This document shows, one piece after another, positions 45,559 to 55,163 of a DNA stretch of 64,000 bases. The position numbers were made by a program, and so were the translations under genes. The notes under the pieces were generated by a model. That model was not told where the DNA came from, did no database searches, and saw only the letters and a program-made list of their open reading frames with translations. How positions within the stretch are numbered: position 1 is the stretch's first letter; every line of letters starts with the position of its first letter. The stretch is taken from positions 1 through 64,000 of the forward strand of contig JALGZR010000052.1 in NCBI GenBank assembly GCA_025774805.1, in the 5' to 3' direction. Origin of the DNA: a bacterium (GTDB lineage: Bacteria > ARS69).

Positions 45559-46491
45559 ATGCGCGTACTCGTCACGGGCGCCGCCGGGTTCCTGGGCTCC
45601 CACCTGACCGACCGCCTCCTGAAGGAGGGGCACGAGGTCGTCGGGCTCGACAATCTGATCACCGGAAACATAAGGAACATCGAGCACCTCTCGGGCAATC
45701 CGAAGTTCCAGTTCATCAAGCACGACGTCACCGAGTACATCTTCCTCTCCGGTGCGCTGGACGCCCTTCTCCACTTCGCGTCACCCGCGTCCCCGATCGA
45801 CTATCTCGAGCTCCCGATCCAGACCCTGAAGGTGGGGGCGCTCGGAACCCACAAGGCCCTGGGTCTCGCTCTCGGCAAGGGGGCGCGCTTCCTGATCGCG
45901 TCCTCGTCCGAAGTCTACGGCGATCCCCTGACCCACCCCCAGCAGGAGACCTACTGGGGCAACGTGAACCCGATCGGGCCCCGCGGCGTCTACGACGAGG
46001 CGAAGCGCTTCGGTGAGGCCATCACGATGGCCTATCACCGCTCTCACGGCCTCGACACGAAGATCGTCCGCATCTTCAACACGTACGGCCCCCGGATGCG
46101 CGCCCGGGACGGCCGCGTCGTCCCCGCGTTCATCACGCAGGCTCTCTCCGGAAAGCCGCTGACCGTGTTCGGCGACGGCACGCAGACACGGTCCTTCTGC
46201 TTCGTCTCCGACCTGATCGACGGGGTCTATCGCCTCCTCCTCTCCGACCTCAACGAGCCCTGCAATCTCGGAAACCCGACCGAGATGACCATTCTCCAGT
46301 TCGCCGAGGTCGTTCGGCGCCTGACCGGCTCGAAATCCGAGATCACGTTCGAGCCCCTGCCCACCGATGATCCCCGGGTCCGCCAGCCGGACATCACCCT
46401 GGCCAGGACGGAGCTGGGGTGGGAGCCGGCCGTGTCCTTCGAGGAGGGGCTCCGGGAGACGATCCGCTACTTCCAGGAAGTGGGATACTGA
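45559..46491 (+). CDS. UDP-glucuronate decarboxylase-like SDR sugar-nucleotide enzyme
   Basis: 310 residues; AAGGGGAATGA precedes the ATG. Extended SDR motifs are clear: [15 protein letters not shown] for NAD binding, [27 protein letters not shown] and the catalytic [24 protein letters not shown] and [14 protein letters not shown] are hallmarks of UDP-xylose synthase/UDP-glucuronate decarboxylase, which yields UDP-xylose for glycans. It overlaps the next epimerase gene by one base (TGATG), so the two probably work in one pathway for surface polysaccharide. Confidence 0.85.
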
Positions 46492-47462
46492 TGCGCTTTC
46501 TGCTGACGGGCGGCGCGGGCTTCATCGGATCGCATCTCGCGGACCACCTGCTCGACCGGGGGGATCGGGTCACCATCCTCGACGACCTCTCCACCGGCCG
46601 GAAGGAGAACCTCGAGCATCGGGAGGGCGACTCCCGATTCCGGGCCGTCTACGACACGGTGTTGAACGCCGACGTCGTACGGCGGCTGGTCGCGGAGGCG
46701 GACTGTGTTCTCCACCTGGCGGCCGCGGTCGGCGTGAAGTACATCATCGAGAATCCGCTGCACTCGATGCGGGTGAACATCCGCGGCACCGAGAACGTGC
46801 TCGAGGCCGCCGACCGCCGCGGGACGAAGGTCGTTCTCTTCTCCAGCTCCGAGATCTACGGGAAGTCCGCGGACACTCCGTTTCGCGAAGACGCGGATCG
46901 GCTGCTCGGCCCCCCGACGGTGCATCGCTGGAGCTACTCCACCGCGAAGGCGGTCGACGAGGTCCTGGGCCTCGCCTACCGGCAGGAGCGGAACCTGCCG
47001 GTCATCATCGTCCGCTGCTTCAACACCTGCGGTCCCCGGCAGCGCGGACGGTACGGCATGGTGATGCCCCGTTTCGTCGAGCAGGCGCTCCGGGGCGATC
47101 CGATCACCGTCTACGGCGACGGCACTCAGACGAGGTGCTTCGCATCGGTCTTCGACGTCGTGGAGGGAATCGTCTCTCTCCTCGACGAGGATCGCGCGGT
47201 CGGAGAGATCTTCAACATCGGGACGAACGAGGAGTACAGCGTCCTCGCGCTCGCGCGGAGAGTCCGCGAGATCACGGGCAGCGATTCCGAGATCCGCCTG
47301 ATCCCGTACGCGGAAGCCTACGAAGAGGGGTTCGAGGACATGCTGCGGCGCGTTCCCGATCTCGGGAAGATCCGGAGGCTGATCGGTTATCGGCCGAAGC
47401 GCACGCTGGACGACGTCCTGCGTTCCGTGATCGAGTACCGGCGGACGATTCCGACTACGTAG
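46491..47462 (+). CDS. NAD-dependent epimerase/dehydratase (GalE-like)
   Basis: 323 residues from the ATG overlapping the previous stop. It has GGAGFIGSHLADHLL, LHLAAAVGVKYIIENP, SSSEIYGKS and catalytic YSTAKAVDE, plus CGPRQRGRYGMVMPRF. These fit extended SDR sugar-nucleotide epimerases. The exact substrate cannot be named; a UDP-hexose or UDP-pentose epimerase fits its partner. A 10-base gap separates it from the convergent BNR gene. Confidence 0.82.
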   Translation: MRFLLTGGAGFIGSHLADHLLDRGDRVTILDDLSTGRKENLEHREGDSRFRAVYDTVLNADVVRRLVAEADCVLHLAAAVGVKYIIENPLHSMRVNIRGTENVLEAADRRGTKVVLFSSSEIYGKSADTPFREDADRLLGPPTVHRWSYSTAKAVDEVLGLAYRQERNLPVIIVRCFNTCGPRQRGRYGMVMPRFVEQALRGDPITVYGDGTQTRCFASVFDVVEGIVSLLDEDRAVGEIFNIGTNEEYSVLALARRVREITGSDSEIRLIPYAEAYEEGFEDMLRRVPDLGKIRRLIGYRPKRTLDDVLRSVIEYRRTIPTT

Positions 47463-47472
47463 CCCGCATTTC

Positions 47473-50043
47473 TCACCGGGCGACGATCACCTTCCGCGAC
47501 GTCCGAGCCTCCCCAGCGCGGAGAACGGCGAAGTAGACGCCGTCCGGAAGGTCCTCCGTCCACCAGCGACCGTTGCGAACGATGCCGTCTCCCCGGGAGA
47601 GTCGGGCGACCTCGCTCACGAGCCGGCCCCGGACGTCGTAGATCTCGAGCACGACCTCGCCCGAGGAGTTCGCCGCGTAGCGGAACGTCGTCGCGTCCAC
47701 CACGGGATTCGGATAGGGCCGATCGAGCATGAGGCTCGGCGGTCCCGACGGGGGCCGTACATCCACGTCGGGCCCGTCCTCCGGCTCGAGGTCGAGCAGG
47801 GGGCCGAAGTCGAGCTCCCAAGCACCGCGACCGTGCGTGCCCGCGAAGAGCTTGTGGGTCGCCACCTGGATCTCGAGGTCGGCGATCACCGCGTTCGGGA
47901 GACCGTTCTCGCACGGGCTCCAGCTCGCTCCCCCGTCCGTGCAGTTCCACACGCCGATGTCCGTCCCCACGAACCAGAGGTTCGGACTGCCGGGGGCCAC
48001 GGCGATCGCATTCACCGGCTGATCGGGCAGATTCCCCGTGACGTCCTGCCAGGACCCGCCCCCGTCCGTGGTCAGCGCCACGTGGGCATCTCCGACCGCG
48101 TACCCCGAGAAGGTGACGAAGGCGGAGTTCACGTCGACCGGATGGGCGAGGATCTTCGTCACCGTGCCGTGCGAGAACATGAACGACGCCGCGGGGGACC
48201 AGGAGGCTCCGTCGTCCGTGGTGCGCCAGACGACCGCGCTCGCCGTCCAGACGACGTCACCGTCGACGGGGCTGATCGAGATCCAGAGGGCGGTATGGTC
48301 GGCCACCTTCGTCCAGGAGCTCCCTCCCGTGGTCGTGCGGAAGATCCCGTCGGAACTGGACGTGTAGAGGTGGTTGCCGGCGTTCTGGTCCTCGTCGACG
48401 GGTGTGACCCAGAGACCCTCCCCGGTGATCCCCGAGTTGATCGAGGTCCAGGGCCCCAGCCCGGAGGCCGTGTTCTTCCGGTGGTCCCCCTTCTGCATCT
48501 CCGCGTAGACCGTGCGACCGTTGAGCGGATTGATGTTGCAGACCATTCCGTCGCCGCCCAGACCCTCGCCCCAGGACGACGTTCCGCTCCACCTGTCGGT
48601 GCCCTGGTCCTGCGTACCGCCCATGATGAAGTCGGGGTCGGCGTCGTGGTTGTTCACGCAGATGTCGTAGAACTGATACGTCACCAGACCCGCGTTGCGA
48701 TCGGACCAGCTCAGGCCGTCGTCGGTGGACTCCCAGATTCCGCCGTCGGTCGCGACGAAGACGTTGTCACCGGCCCCCGGTCGGTAGACGGCGTCGTGAT
48801 GGTCGACGTGAACGCCGCCGCCGGTGCCGGTGAACGTGACGCCTCCGTCCGTCGAACGGTACAGCGCGACGCCGCCCGCGATCACGACGTCGGCGTCGTC
48901 CGGATCGGCGACGAGAGAAAGGTTGTACCAGCCCTGCCCGCCGGGGATGTTCGGGGTCGTCGCGCGGAGGATCCAGTTCGCCCCCCCGTCCGTGCTGCGA
49001 TAGACGCCGAGCAGGTGATAGGTCGAACGGTTGGAGTAGATCGCGTAGATCGTGTTCGGGTCCTGGGGGGACATCGCGATCTTCGTCTTGCCGATGTCGA
49101 GGGAGCCCGGCTGGCCGATGCCCGCCTTCGCCCACGTCAGGCCGTCGTCCGTCGAGACCTTCACGTTGTTACCGCTCGCGTCGCGGCCCTTGGCCACGAA
49201 GACGGAGTCCGCGCTCCCCGGCTTCCAGCGGCCGTCGTAGTAGTCGCCTCCCACCTTCATCTGGACCCACGTCTCTCCGGCGTCGCTCGATCGCCAGAGG
49301 CCGTTCGTCGCGCCCGCGAGCAGGGTCCCGTGGATCGGGTTCGCCTCCACGAAGTGGAATCCGTGACCGCTGCTCTCGCCGTACGAGAGACTGGTCGTGT
49401 TCCAGGTCGCACCCCCGTCGGTGGACCTCAGGATGCCGACCCCGCCGATCCGATCGACGTTGAACGTGGCCTCCCCCGTCCCGATCACGACCACGTCGGG
49501 ATCGGTGGGGACGACGGCCACCCCCCCGACCGCCAGGGTGGGCAGGTCGTCCGTCAGGGGGGACCAGGTCCCGCCGCCGTCCGTGCTCTTCCAGAGCCCC
49601 CCGCCCGCGGCCCCGGCATAGAGGGTGTCGGGGCTCGTCGGATGGAACTCGAGCGCGAGCATCCGTCCGGCGAGATTCGCGGGACCGAGCGCGAACCAGG
49701 TCGAGCGAAACGACCGGGCCCTCAGAGCTTGACGCTGCTGCCGCTGCTCCCAAGCCCTCCACCGGGCTCCGACCGGCGGCTCTACGCCGTCCACCATGCG
49801 CTGCTCGTGGAACCACCGGATCCGCTGGAACGGCTTCCACCCGTGCCCCGGGCGCTCGACGTAGTCGGGTCGGGTCCCGAAGAAGCGGTCCATTCCGGTG
49901 ATCCAGGCGGTCAGTCCGTCGTCGAGGCCCGGCTCGCTCGTGGAGGCGGAGGCCTCCGCCCCCGGAAGGAGCCCCGACGGCAGAAGCGAGAGGATCAGGG
50001 CGGGGAGGAGGGATCGAGACGGCAAGAGAAAACGGGGCACCAT
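47473..50043 (-). CDS. secreted BNR/sortilin-type propeller protein with FlgD-like C-terminal sorting domain (copy B)
   Basis: 856 residues from the ATG behind GAGAGGAGGGAAATC; open frame upstream of it has no coding character. Signal peptide (LLPALILSLLPSGLLPGA), then GHGWKPFQRIRWFHEQRM, which matches GSGWKPYNRVKWATERRM of copy A. Repeats include GGLWKSTDGGGTW, GILRSTDGGATW and GIWESTDDGLSW. The tail (YPNPVVDATTFRYA, LEIYDVRGRLVS, LPDGVYFAVLRAG, ending KVIVAR) is a type IX-like sorting domain. The two paralogs align over their full length, so this is a family of large surface or released propellers. Function unknown. Confidence 0.85.
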   Translation of the reverse strand: MVPRFLLPSRSLLPALILSLLPSGLLPGAEASASTSEPGLDDGLTAWITGMDRFFGTRPDYVERPGHGWKPFQRIRWFHEQRMVDGVEPPVGARWRAWEQRQQRQALRARSFRSTWFALGPANLAGRMLALEFHPTSPDTLYAGAAGGGLWKSTDGGGTWSPLTDDLPTLAVGGVAVVPTDPDVVVIGTGEATFNVDRIGGVGILRSTDGGATWNTTSLSYGESSGHGFHFVEANPIHGTLLAGATNGLWRSSDAGETWVQMKVGGDYYDGRWKPGSADSVFVAKGRDASGNNVKVSTDDGLTWAKAGIGQPGSLDIGKTKIAMSPQDPNTIYAIYSNRSTYHLLGVYRSTDGGANWILRATTPNIPGGQGWYNLSLVADPDDADVVIAGGVALYRSTDGGVTFTGTGGGVHVDHHDAVYRPGAGDNVFVATDGGIWESTDDGLSWSDRNAGLVTYQFYDICVNNHDADPDFIMGGTQDQGTDRWSGTSSWGEGLGGDGMVCNINPLNGRTVYAEMQKGDHRKNTASGLGPWTSINSGITGEGLWVTPVDEDQNAGNHLYTSSSDGIFRTTTGGSSWTKVADHTALWISISPVDGDVVWTASAVVWRTTDDGASWSPAASFMFSHGTVTKILAHPVDVNSAFVTFSGYAVGDAHVALTTDGGGSWQDVTGNLPDQPVNAIAVAPGSPNLWFVGTDIGVWNCTDGGASWSPCENGLPNAVIADLEIQVATHKLFAGTHGRGAWELDFGPLLDLEPEDGPDVDVRPPSGPPSLMLDRPYPNPVVDATTFRYAANSSGEVVLEIYDVRGRLVSEVARLSRGDGIVRNGRWWTEDLPDGVYFAVLRAGEARTSRKVIVAR

Positions 50044-50244: not shown

Positions 50245-52293
50245 TTGACGCTCCCCCGACCCTCTCGTAGGCTTTGCCGCGACTCGGAGCCCAACTCTCG
50301 GCACCGGGACCCGACCCGTCTCGGGAGGTCCGTTCTGGTCTCGTTTCTCGTCACGTTCGTGACCGCGCTGGCCGTCGCGCTCCTGCTGACCCCTGTCTGC
50401 CGCCGGATCGCGATTCGAACCGGCTTCGTCGCGATCCCCTCCGCCAAGGGGATTCACCGCGAGCCGACCCCGGTCCTCGGAGGCGTGGCCATCTTCTTCG
50501 CGGTCTTCTTCGCCCTGTTCGTCGCCGGAGGGTTCTCGGGGGCGCTCCCGAAGATGCGCGCCCTCGGGTTCCTGGGCGGAGGCGCGCTCGTGTTCGTGAT
50601 GGGAGTCATCGACGACCGCGTGGATCTGAGCTGGTTTTCCAAGCTCCTCGGTCAGATCGTCGCCGCGATTCTCCTCCTCGCGAGCGACAACGCGAGCGGG
50701 GTGTTCTTGACGCCCGGTGGACTCGTGCTCTCCCTCCTCTGGCTCGTCGGCCTCGCCAACGCGATGAACTTCCTGGACAACATGGACGGCGTATGCTCCG
50801 GAATCACCGTCGTCGTCGCCGCGGTTCTCGGGGCGTTGGCCCTTCTCGCCGGCCAGCCCGAGACCGCCCTCCTGGCGGGCGCGGTCTGCGGGGCCTCTCT
50901 CGGGTTTCTCCGCTTCAATTTCTTTCCCGCGCGGATCTTCCTGGGAGACGGCGGCAGCCTCTTCCTCGGCTACTCCCTCGCCAGTCTCGGTCTCATGACC
51001 ACGCGGTCGATGGACTTCACGTTCGCGCTGCTCGTTCCGGTGATCGCGCTGGCGTATCCGATCTTCGATATCACGTTCGTCAGCGTGACCCGCGTGGCCC
51101 GGGGGCAGAGCCTCACCCAGGGAGGCCGCGACCACACCAGCCACCGCCTCGGTCGCCTGCTCGGGGACGCACGGCTCACCTCGGTCACCATCTACGCCAT
51201 CTGCGCCGCGCTCGGGGCGATCGCCGTCGGGCTGCACCAGATCGCGTTCCCCCCGGCGACCATCGTGACGTTCCTGGCCGTCGCGTTCGCGTTCTTCGGC
51301 TTCGGGATGCGGCTCAGCCGGTCCGCACCCGTTCCCAAGCCCCCGGGCACCGCCGCCGCCGGGGTTTCCCCGAGCTCCCCGCGACGGGCTCCCCCCATCG
51401 GAGGAGAGGACTTGAGCCAGAGCCGGACCGTACGGGTCGGATGCCGCGACAACGACTTCTGTCGGGCTCAGACCGGGTCGCTCCTCGAGAGGATCGCCGG
51501 GAGCCATCCGAAGATCACGTTCGAGGTCATCGATCTTCCCGGGAGCGGAGAGGGAGAGCACCCGATCCTCGAAGCGCTGGGCGCGGGCGTCTGCGACCTG
51601 CACCTCCGCGCGGTGCGGGAGCTGCCGATCGGGCTGCCCGAGGACGTCGTGCTCGCCGCCGTCACCCGGAGGAACGACCCGTTCGACGTGCTGATCGCCG
51701 GCGACGGCCAGCTCCTCGAAGACCTCCCGGAGGACGCGATCCTCGGCGTCGAGTCGTCCCGCGTCGCCGTCCAGTTGAAGTCGTTCCGAGAGGACATCCG
51801 GGTCCAGAAGATGAAGGGGACGATCGACCGTCTCATGCAGCACCTGAGCTCGGGAGAGATCGCCGCGTTCGTCACCGCGGCCGAGGACGTCGAGACTCTA
51901 GGCTGGGAGGAGTCCGTGGTGGAGTTCTTCCACCCGGACATGGTGCTTCCCGCGGCCGGACAGGGGTGCTTCGCCATTCTCGGTCGGGCGGGAGACGACG
52001 AGCTGATCGAGGAGTTCGCCACGCACGACCACCTCGTGTCCCGTCAGGTCGTGCTCGCGGAACGCGCCTTTCTCCGGGAGCTCAACGTGAAGCCGACCGA
52101 TCCGGTCGCGGTGCACGGTCGCTTCGAGGGGGAGACGCTCGTGCTGGAGGCCATGCTTGCCGACGAGATCTCCGGGGCGATTCTGCGTGACGATCTCGAC
52201 GGCGATCCCTCCGAGGAGGACGAGCTCGGCATCCGTCTCGCCAAGCTCTTCATCGCGGATGGCGCCCGGGACTACATCGCCAGTTACGGGTAG
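50245..52293 (+). CDS. MraY/WecA-type sugar-phosphate transferase fused to a degenerate HemC-like domain
   Basis: 682 residues from the TTG; a CTG at 50335 behind GGGAGG would start right at the first helix and may be the true start. Residues about 30-370 are a polytopic GlcNAc-1-P-transferase-like enzyme: GVIDDRVDLSWFSKLLGQ, ANAMNFLDNMDG, RIFLGDGGSLFLGYS and GRDHTSHRLGRL carry its Asp and His positions. After a Pro/Ser linker, residues about 390-682 align with porphobilinogen deaminase (VRVGCRDNDFCRAQTGSLLE, VLPAAGQGCFAI, ERAFLREL). The dipyrromethane-cofactor Cys is absent (NVKPTDPVAVHG in place of GGCQVPIG) and the active-site Asp is Glu. No stop separates the parts. The enzyme half probably primes a lipid-linked glycan; the second half is unexplained. 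Confidence 0.75.
   Translation: MTLPRPSRRLCRDSEPNSRHRDPTRLGRSVLVSFLVTFVTALAVALLLTPVCRRIAIRTGFVAIPSAKGIHREPTPVLGGVAIFFAVFFALFVAGGFSGALPKMRALGFLGGGALVFVMGVIDDRVDLSWFSKLLGQIVAAILLLASDNASGVFLTPGGLVLSLLWLVGLANAMNFLDNMDGVCSGITVVVAAVLGALALLAGQPETALLAGAVCGASLGFLRFNFFPARIFLGDGGSLFLGYSLASLGLMTTRSMDFTFALLVPVIALAYPIFDITFVSVTRVARGQSLTQGGRDHTSHRLGRLLGDARLTSVTIYAICAALGAIAVGLHQIAFPPATIVTFLAVAFAFFGFGMRLSRSAPVPKPPGTAAAGVSPSSPRRAPPIGGEDLSQSRTVRVGCRDNDFCRAQTGSLLERIAGSHPKITFEVIDLPGSGEGEHPILEALGAGVCDLHLRAVRELPIGLPEDVVLAAVTRRNDPFDVLIAGDGQLLEDLPEDAILGVESSRVAVQLKSFREDIRVQKMKGTIDRLMQHLSSGEIAAFVTAAEDVETLGWEESVVEFFHPDMVLPAAGQGCFAILGRAGDDELIEEFATHDHLVSRQVVLAERAFLRELNVKPTDPVAVHGRFEGETLVLEAMLADEISGAILRDDLDGDPSEEDELGIRLAKLFIADGARDYIASYG
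51400..51414 (+). promoter_or_regulatory. internal ribosome binding site and TTG start before the HemC-like domain
   Basis: GGAGG followed after 7 bases by an in-frame TTG (LSQSRTVRVGC) sits exactly in the linker. Translation from here would give a separate 293-residue HemC-like protein in addition to the fusion. Confidence 0.45.
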
Positions 52294-52299
52294 CGAGCC

Positions 52300-53565
52300 A
52301 TGGCCGGCCGATTCCGGTTCTCCGTCTCCCCCGGTCAAATCAGGAACTTCCTGTTCCTCGGCATGGTCGCGCTGGCTCTCGCCTCCTTTCTCTTCACGAG
52401 CCGGCTCGCGTCCCGACTGGAGAGGCAGACCGCGTCCTTCACGGACATCTTCGCCCGCTTCGCGGCGACGTCCACGATCCGCGCTGCGGAGGACGAGGAG
52501 GTCCAGCGCCTCTTCCGCAGCTTCATGGACCGCGTCACGTTTCCCATCATCGTGACCGACCATCGAGGGGTTCCCTGGACCTGCAAGGGAACCGGAGTCT
52601 CTCCGGATGCGATTCCCTACGAGGAGTTCCTCTACACCGACCCGAGCAATCCCAGTCCCGGCCCGGTGGCCGACCTCATCCGCCTCGCCTGGGAGATGGA
52701 CACGAAGCGGACTCCGATCCCGATGTACCGCCCCGACACGGGAGACCTCTTCGGTTACGTTCACTACGGGGAGTCCCCCCTCGTCGCCAGCCTCCGGCTG
52801 ATGCCGATCATCCAGATCGCGATCGGGGCGCTCCTCGTGGCGGTGGCCTACATCGGGATCCGCTCGGTCCGGCAGAGCGAAAAGCGATCGATCTGGGTGG
52901 GCATGGCGAAGGAGACCGCTCACCAGCTCGGAACGCCCATCTCCTCCATGATGGGGTGGGTCGACCTCCTGGAGGCGGAGACCGAGCCCGGCGACGACTC
53001 CCGGCGAAGCACCCTCAAGGAGATGAGGGCCGATCTCGAGAGACTGACCCAGATCGCCAGCCGGTTCGAGCGGGTCGGGTCCGTGCCCGCGTTCCGGCTT
53101 CTGGACGTGAACCCCGTCATCTCCCAGGTCGTTCTCTACCTGCGGCGGCGGCTCCCGTCACGGGGTCGGCGGGTGGAGATCATCGAGCAGCTCGAGGCCG
53201 AGATCCCCCGGATCCACTCCGACCCCGAGCTTCTCGCCTGGACCGTCGAGAACCTCCTCAAGAATGCGGCGGATGCCATCCTGAAGGGGAAGGGAGACGG
53301 GAGGATCTACGTCCGGTCCTCCCCCGGGAATCCGAACGGGGTGAGGATCGTCGTCGAGGACGACGGGCCGGGAATCCCCGAATCCGATCAGAACCGGGTC
53401 TTTGACCCGGGGTTCACTACGAAAGCGCGGGGCTGGGGTCTCGGACTCGCCCTGGCCCGCCGGATCGTCGAGGACTACCACCACGGGCGCATCCGGCTAT
53501 TGCGGAGCACACCCGGCGTCCGTACCGTATTCGCGGTGGACCTGCCCGAACGGTCCGCCCACTGA
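52300..53565 (+). CDS. membrane sensor histidine kinase (PorY-like candidate)
   Basis: 421 residues. Two membrane helices (IRNFLFLGMVALALASFLF and IIQIAIGALLVAVAYIGI) flank a periplasmic loop of about 130 residues. The kinase core has the phospho-accepting His in AKETAHQLGTPISSMMGW, then NLLKNAADAILKG, EDDGPGIPESD and GWGLGLALARRIVEDYH. It starts 6 bases after the fusion gene and is followed after 26 bases by the PorX-like regulator, so the two are the natural pair. Calling it PorY-like rests on that adjacency. Confidence 0.85.
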   Translation: MAGRFRFSVSPGQIRNFLFLGMVALALASFLFTSRLASRLERQTASFTDIFARFAATSTIRAAEDEEVQRLFRSFMDRVTFPIIVTDHRGVPWTCKGTGVSPDAIPYEEFLYTDPSNPSPGPVADLIRLAWEMDTKRTPIPMYRPDTGDLFGYVHYGESPLVASLRLMPIIQIAIGALLVAVAYIGIRSVRQSEKRSIWVGMAKETAHQLGTPISSMMGWVDLLEAETEPGDDSRRSTLKEMRADLERLTQIASRFERVGSVPAFRLLDVNPVISQVVLYLRRRLPSRGRRVEIIEQLEAEIPRIHSDPELLAWTVENLLKNAADAILKGKGDGRIYVRSSPGNPNGVRIVVEDDGPGIPESDQNRVFDPGFTTKARGWGLGLALARRIVEDYHHGRIRLLRSTPGVRTVFAVDLPERSAH

Positions 53566-53591: not shown

Positions 53592-55163
53592 ATGCCTGAG
53601 GACCGCAAGAGAATCCTCTGGGTCGACGACGAGGTCGACCATCTGCGGCCCCACATGAAGTTCCTGGAGGACCGCGGGTTCCAGGTCGAGGGCGTCACGA
53701 ACGGAGAGGACGCGATCGCCCTGATCTCCGAGTCCGAGGCGCGGATCGATCTCGTCATTCTGGACGAGATGATGCCGGGATTCTCCGGCCTCGAGACCCT
53801 CCAGCGGATCAAGGCCGCGGACCCGTACGTCCCGATCATCATGGTCACGAAGTCGGAGGACGAGGGGCTCGTCGACGCGGCCATCCGCCAGGACATCCAC
53901 AACTATTTGGTGAAGCCGGTGAACCCACTCCAGGTCTACACGGCCGCCAAGCAGCTCATCGAGGGCAACCGTCTCCGCGAATCGGGCGTGATGCGGGACT
54001 ACGTCGACCAGTTCACCCTGCTGCGGAACCTTCGCACGGACGAGGCCTCGGCGGAGACCTGGATCGAGGTCTACCGGCAGCTCGCCGAGTGGGACGTCCG
54101 GCTCGACAACCACCGGGACGCCGGTCTCCTCCAGACGCACGAGGACGCGAAGCTCGAGGCGAACATCGAGTTCTGCCGGTTCGTCTCGGATCACTACGAG
54201 GATTGGGTGGACGGCCCGAGCGACTCGCGCCCGACCCTCTCGGTCGACATCATCGCGAAGTACGTCGCCCCGCTCCTGTCCGAGGGGCGAAAGGTCTACT
54301 TCATTCTCATCGACTGTCTGCGGCTCGATCAGTGGCTGGCCATCGAGGCGTTGCTCGAGCCGTACTTCGACATCCGACGCGACTACTACTTCTCGGTGCT
54401 TCCGACCGCGACCTCCTTCTCCCGAAACTCCGTCTTCTCCGGCCTCTTCCCCCTGCAGATCGCCAAGCGGCATCCGGAGTTCTGGAGCATGCCCGGCGAC
54501 GACGACCACAGTCTGAACCGGTACGAACGGCAGCTTCTCGACCTCCAGCTCGAACGGCTCGGGGTCCAGGTGAACCCTTCGACGAAGTACATCAAGGTGT
54601 TCAACCAGGAGGAGGCCGGCGCCGTGAAGAAGGACATCGCGAGCCTCTACTCCCTGCCTCTGGTCGCGATGGTGTTCAACTTCATCGACATTCTCTCCCA
54701 CGGACGGAGCGAGTCGATGATCCTCCAGGAGATCGCACCCGACGAGGCGGCATTCCGGGCGCTCACCACGGCCTGGTTCAAGCACTCGTCGCTCTTCGAC
54801 ATCATGAAGGCGATCTCCCGGCAGGACGCGACGGTGATCCTCACCACCGATCACGGATCGGTGCTCGGACGGCGCTCCACGATCGCCTACGGAAACCGGG
54901 ACACGTCGACGAACCTCCGCTTCAAGATCGGGACGAACCTGGGGTGCGACGAGAAGCACGCGCTCCACCTCAAGGACCCGGAGCGCTTTCAACTCCCGTC
55001 CCCCGGACTGAACACCCACTACATCCTGGCCAAGGAGAACTTCTACTTCGTCTATCCGACGAAATACCACGAGTACGAGCGCCAGTACCGGGGCAGCTTC
55101 CAGCACGGCGGGATTTCGATGGAGGAGATGATCCTCCCGTGCGTCCTGATGAACCCCCGGTGA
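53592..55163 (+). CDS. porX: PorX-like response regulator with PglZ/alkaline-phosphatase-type output domain
   Basis: 523 residues. An N-terminal receiver (ILWVDDEVDHL, phospho-accepting Asp in LVILDEMMPG, Lys in YLVKPVNP) is joined by a helical linker to a C-terminal PglZ domain (FILIDCLRLDQWLAIEALL, VLPTATSFSRNS, LTTDHGSVLGRR), carrying the Thr, Asp and His of the alkaline-phosphatase fold. PorX proteins in Bacteroidota have this layout and control type IX secretion. Four proteins with type IX-like tails in the same window support that reading. Its stop overlaps the tsaE start. Confidence 0.82.
   Translation: MPEDRKRILWVDDEVDHLRPHMKFLEDRGFQVEGVTNGEDAIALISESEARIDLVILDEMMPGFSGLETLQRIKAADPYVPIIMVTKSEDEGLVDAAIRQDIHNYLVKPVNPLQVYTAAKQLIEGNRLRESGVMRDYVDQFTLLRNLRTDEASAETWIEVYRQLAEWDVRLDNHRDAGLLQTHEDAKLEANIEFCRFVSDHYEDWVDGPSDSRPTLSVDIIAKYVAPLLSEGRKVYFILIDCLRLDQWLAIEALLEPYFDIRRDYYFSVLPTATSFSRNSVFSGLFPLQIAKRHPEFWSMPGDDDHSLNRYERQLLDLQLERLGVQVNPSTKYIKVFNQEEAGAVKKDIASLYSLPLVAMVFNFIDILSHGRSESMILQEIAPDEAAFRALTTAWFKHSSLFDIMKAISRQDATVILTTDHGSVLGRRSTIAYGNRDTSTNLRFKIGTNLGCDEKHALHLKDPERFQLPSPGLNTHYILAKENFYFVYPTKYHEYERQYRGSFQHGGISMEEMILPCVLMNPR

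Follow-up and report, generated by a model that had tools for sequence, protein, structure and literature searches.

We describe a family of proteins that has the fold of the porphobilinogen deaminase HemC and appears to have lost its chemistry. On sequence grounds the family, HemC-fold pseudoenzymes that we call psHemC, is best read as an ancient HemC-derived paralogue that normally has a gene of its own. We give an about even chance to the explanation we prefer, that psHemC is an HMBS paralogue without capacity for the cofactor, recruited to a locus for lipid-linked surface glycan and type IX secretion (T9SS). Few enzymes of tetrapyrrole synthesis are as constrained as HemC. We know of no HemC pseudoenzyme family, and literature searches for one returned nothing fitting.

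The window, a 64,000-nucleotide stretch of bacterial DNA, contains a single open frame (50245-52293, + strand, 682 aa) in which a WecA-type transferase is followed by a HemC-like protein (Table 1). The initial annotation had read this frame as a MraY/WecA-type enzyme with Asp and His motifs joined to a domain resembling porphobilinogen deaminase, and both identifications hold. The frame is uninterrupted, and its N-terminal half matches Pfam Glycos_transf_4 (PF00953, E 4.5e-31), has the conserved Asp and His motifs in translation and is 55-68% identical to the separate WecA proteins of four relatives. The C-terminal half matches the HemC domains Porphobil_deam (PF01379, E 1.8e-28) and Porphobil_deamC (PF03900, E 1.9e-6), and a sequence search of the PDB with the psHemC part found porphobilinogen deaminases only (best E 3e-31). 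Against the hemC equivalog TIGR00212 it scores 151 bits, under the cut-off of 164.

Table 1. Features of the window and of related loci. Locations in loci other than the window are preceded by the locus handle.
Feature	Location	Strand	Basis or remark
NAD-dependent nucleotide-sugar epimerase/decarboxylase (UXS/GMD-like)	45559..46491	+	Pfam Epimerase and GDP_Man_Dehyd
Second NAD-dependent epimerase	46491..47462	+	Pfam; start inferred as the ATG before MRFLLTGG
Secreted repeat protein with T9SS type A sorting domain	47473..50043	-	TIGR04183, 35.2 bits (cut-off 23)
WecA/MraY-type polyprenyl-phosphate sugar-phosphate transferase	50245..51411	+	PF00953, E 4.5e-31; true start uncertain
Ribosome-binding-site-like GGAGGAGAGG	51400..51409	+	Two bases 5' of TTG 51412; read from sequence
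psHemC, HemC-fold pseudoenzyme	51412..52293	+	TTG start, as in separate relatives
Membrane histidine kinase	52300..53565	+	HATPase_c and HisKA
PorX, receiver (Response_reg) and PglZ-type phosphodiesterase domain	53592..55163	+	NF052313, 631.7 bits (cut-off 300)
psHemC passing TIGR00212 (G408)	L124 46-993	-	210 bits
psHemC passing TIGR00212	L162 8933-9853		166 bits
psHemC passing TIGR00212	L167 7499-8398		170 bits
SerS-like seryl-tRNA synthetase between psHemC and kinase (f263, f264)	L162 9886-11154; L163 3758-5026; L167 8438-9748
HemL-like glutamate-1-semialdehyde aminomutase (f99)	L258 4493-5794; L259 3985-5283		Recognised from sequence, no profile

An AlphaFold model of 51412-52290 (mean pLDDT 92.1, pTM 0.89) had porphobilinogen deaminases as its best PDB fold matches (TM 0.90-0.93). 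The next group in Foldseek, Thi5 and solute-binding proteins, lay at TM 0.3-0.4. The input alignment consisted of HemC homologues from viral contigs and could bias the model towards HemC; the alignment-independent sequence matches agree with it. By this model the HemC-like part of the window folds as HemC. Among viral contigs HemC homologues are frequent: 138 were confirmed out of 193 pattern matches (L172-L251). A first scan of viral contigs with a psHemC alignment gave no match.

Alignment to E. coli HemC, whose numbering we use, showed that the dipyrromethane-cofactor cysteine of the window psHemC is gone (Cys242 to Pro). Asp84 is replaced by Glu and Lys83 by Arg, and of the arginines Arg132 has become Val, Arg149 Lys, Arg155 Leu and Arg176 Thr, while Arg11 is kept. 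The lost cysteine, the Glu in place of the active-site Asp and the loss of several substrate arginines had all been noticed in the initial annotation. The mobile lid with Lys55 and Lys59 is also deleted, as it is throughout the window's clade and in family f264. All five psHemCs of the window's phylum have the two cysteines of a C-x5-C motif (window 51442-51462), which correspond to residues 10 and 16 of E. coli HemC.

The same losses run through the family. Fourteen key residues are invariant in 68 canonical HemCs (a set from which two rows, a degenerate duplicate from G308 and one partial, were set aside), and the 31 psHemCs, from two phyla, retain between one and seven of them. Cys242 is found in 68/68 canonical HemCs and in 0/30 readable psHemCs. 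Derived states are shared as well: Phe or Tyr at 105 in 31/31 psHemCs and 2/68 canonical HemCs, Glu185 in all 31 psHemCs and Glu175 in 30. As read from these alignments, the catalytic residues were lost long ago and across the whole family, and there is good support for the loss of HemC activity. It is, in our judgement rather than by computation, almost certain that psHemC has no HMBS activity. The G308 duplicate (L169 6842-7750, - strand; Cys242 to Asp, Asp84 to Tyr) is an independent degeneration, close to its canonical kin and outside any glycan locus.

Outside the window's phylum a degenerate HemC was first noticed in G029, and a search of that genome's phylum found the degenerate copy in families f26, f260, f263, f264 and f265. 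With a mixed-psHemC profile, only the window's phylum and G029 ranked above the level of canonical HemC among 386 genomes, a survey thin per phylum, in which families outside the two phyla had from one to a few genomes each. A scan of genome contigs turned up just a canonical HemC, and a profile search of 40 other PorX neighbourhoods found no psHemC. In a quick tree of 92 sequences the psHemCs formed one side of a branch (SH-aLRT 99), and in a careful tree of 46 their branch stood apart from canonical HemC (bootstrap/SH-aLRT 100/98). The long inner branches of these trees carry some risk of attraction, but a single origin fits both the shared Phe/Tyr105 and the gene order. Long acidic C-terminal tails are found on most psHemCs of f26 and f260 (L114-L131, 3' ends).

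Five genomes represent the window's phylum in our collection (G000-G004, the window's being G000), and the HemC-like gene is present in 5/5. Between genera in this phylum psHemC is 54-64% identical, similar to WecA at 55-68%. A decaying pseudogene is unlikely, as no genome of the phylum has lost the gene (one copy is partly N-masked).

In the window's phylum the gene order is nucleotide-sugar epimerases, WecA, psHemC, histidine kinase and PorX. The position of the UXS/GMD-like epimerase is matched in G001 and G002, the second epimerase keeps its location 5' of WecA in relatives, and the window kinase is 63-74% identical to those of four relatives. In the window genome the T9SS-sorted repeat protein is flanked by the epimerases and WecA. 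PorX had been placed directly downstream of the HemC-like domain in the initial annotation; psHemC does lie upstream of it, but the kinase intervenes.

The second phylum shows related orders. In G391 the block reads epimerases, UGDH, epimerase, WecB, Wzx, WecA, psHemC, SerS, kinase, PorX, and G410, G418, G423 and G431 match it as far as the parts of the block that were fetched; G428 has psHemC, SerS, kinase, PorX. Family f260 has epimerases, UGDH, Wzx, WecA, psHemC (Wzx checked in two of four loci), f26 has epimerase, UGDH, DegT, psHemC (14 loci compared), and G408 has epimerases, UGDH, WecB, psHemC. The adjacency of WecA and psHemC is thus seen again in this phylum. Within the stretches fetched from f26, f260 and G408 we found no homologue of the kinase-PorX pair, which suggests that a direct link to the kinase does not hold throughout the family.

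This gene context points to a tie between psHemC and the glycan and T9SS genes. The T9SS translocon SprA was found in 15/15 genomes tested, with TIGR04189 (SprA/Sov) scoring 509.9 bits in G000 together with neighbouring pieces in frame. In Porphyromonas gingivalis the sugar SAGA, made by UgdA, WbpB, PorR, WbpD and the Vim proteins, anchors the cargo (PMC4031482, PMC13086638), and PorX bears a zinc-dependent phosphodiesterase domain (PMC11320123). The psHemC loci share gene kinds with this A-LPS/SAGA (Wbp-Vim) system, a likeness of single gene kinds only: a UgdA-like dehydrogenase, a PorR-like DegT aminotransferase, Wzx, T9SS cargo and PorX. They differ from it in gene order and in the use of WecA, and we found no psHemC described in the P. 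gingivalis pathway. By analogy the psHemC locus may make a cargo anchor. A role for psHemC in the glycan/T9SS programme seems to us, as a judgement and not a computed result, somewhat more probable than its absence.

The main rival to a recruited pseudoenzyme is an ancestral hem cluster at the locus. If hem genes once lay in the order WecA-hem-SerS-kinase-PorX, psHemC would be a relic by position, and its neighbourhood would reflect ancestry and not a glycan role. In G240 and G368 (family f99) an intact hemL fills the slot between WecA and SerS, ahead of the kinase and PorX, so hem genes may have lived in the block by history. The slot is empty in the WecA-SerS-kinase-PorX loci of G102 and G072, and SerS is itself a housekeeping gene (SerS and HemL were identified from their sequences, not by profile). 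The occurrence of SerS near psHemC and of a seryl group on P. gingivalis SAGA is perhaps coincidence. However, in the window's phylum psHemC is kept at full length with a divergence like that of WecA, and it persists in five genomes where no heme genes were detected. Its neighbours in f26, f260 and G408 are still UGDH, WecA, WecB or DegT, with no kinase-PorX pair seen near. We consider a relic unlikely but worth keeping in mind, and say the same of its detailed form, in which the local hemC became redundant and then changed function or is slowly decaying.

The state of the heme pathway argues against a role for psHemC in heme synthesis. The initial annotation had proposed looking for a separate, complete hemC in the window genome, and one is present (G000:C190). 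G002 and G004 carry one too, and we reject psHemC as a replacement of canonical HemC. In G408, G425, G428, G437 and G440 psHemC was the sole PF01379 match and neither HemA nor HemB was matched, in assemblies 92, 97, 97, 94 and 77% complete, respectively, although draft genomes may miss heme genes. These five genomes, with no detectable HemA, HemB or canonical HemC, retain psHemC in its locus, which speaks against a part in making heme or in sensing its intermediates. Several psHemCs of the other phylum exceed the TIGR00212 cut-off despite having no cofactor cysteine (examples in Table 1) and are likely misannotated as hemC. This is an annotation trap, as genomes without heme genes then appear to own a hemC.

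The same genomes bear on the idea that psHemC senses tetrapyrrole precursors or heme status and couples heme supply to the kinase-PorX pair. Its HemC ancestry and its place ahead of the kinase in the window's phylum would fit, as would PorX/PorY of P. gingivalis, reported to govern heme accumulation genes (PMC8050853). Its retention without HemA, HemB and canonical HemC, and the loss of most substrate-binding arginines, make such a sensor quite improbable.

The fused frame is a peculiarity of one genome. WecA and psHemC are separate, adjoining genes in 4/4 relatives (G001-G004), and we reject the fusion as a conserved trait. What lasts of the association first proposed is adjacency, which recurs across phyla, and not a covalent unit. 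The initial annotation had named two findings that would count against it, domains found only as separate genes in close relatives with a stop lost here by error, or the lack of a structural match to HemC; the domains are indeed separate neighbours, yet HemC is matched. The separate psHemC starts at TTG in three of the four relatives, the listed frame of G001 starting upstream and being partly N-masked. In the relatives the WecA stop TGA sits within TTGACC, followed after 15-17 bases by a GATA- or TGCTAG-like element, found by eye and pattern, and together these look like a promoter of the second gene.

In the window about 40 bases of this spacer are absent, the WecA stop included, while TTG 51412 and its strong ribosome-binding site are retained. 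With the spacer shrunken, the window genome could make a WecA-psHemC fusion, and possibly also free psHemC from the internal TTG. An uninterrupted frame and a missing stop-bearing spacer are what a true bifunctional protein specific to this organism would need. The intact internal start, the separate genes of all four relatives and the fact that a one-base shift would bring the WecA frame onto a TGA overlapping the TTG make this hard to credit. The assembly is a draft of 284 contigs, and biology or an assembly slip would both fit the missing spacer. We reject an assembly or contamination chimera for the gene pair itself, as the pair recurs in other genomes. That psHemC is a new enzyme with another reaction of its own, perhaps one acting on a sugar nucleotide, is very improbable: an acid at 84 in 26/31 psHemCs and Arg131 in 30/31 would suit it, but other pocket positions differ by clade and no conserved new catalytic set was found.

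The recruited pseudoenzyme is probably a ligand-binding or regulatory part, and the module of this kind suggested in the initial annotation is plausible. psHemC shares with HemC the three-domain fold, PF01379 and PF03900, and scaffold residues such as Arg101, Arg131, Gly199 and Glu231; it differs in having lost the cofactor cysteine along with most residues for catalysis and substrate binding, in its glycan-locus context and in occurring without a detectable heme pathway. Domains 1 and 2 of HemC have periplasmic-binding-protein topology (PMC3945110). Foldseek matches of psHemC to solute-binding proteins are weak (TM about 0.4), and it differs from periplasmic-binding-protein-like sensors in having the extra HemC domain 3 and no visible signal sequence. 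From what is known of the HemC family, psHemC is likely soluble and cytosolic, with a two-lobed cleft that could still accommodate a ligand.

The old porphobilinogen cleft would now bind another small, probably anionic metabolite, with a uronic-acid nucleotide sugar or similar compound as the candidate. Pocket residues vary from clade to clade, so a single common ligand is not assured. In its ligand-bound or free form, psHemC would adjust WecA, a neighbouring enzyme or the kinase-PorX pair. In its most specific form, a sensor of nucleotide-sugar or lipid-linked-sugar metabolites that sets WecA or kinase-PorX output, we judge the proposal doubtful.

The retention of psHemC in two phyla, beside surface-glycan and PorX genes and in genomes with no detectable heme pathway, suggests an unrecognised component of the type IX/glycan programme outside Bacteroidota. 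If psHemC is such a sensor, export of type IX cargo would be tuned to how much of its glycan anchor is available, and a heme enzyme would have given rise to a new class of cytosolic metabolite sensor.
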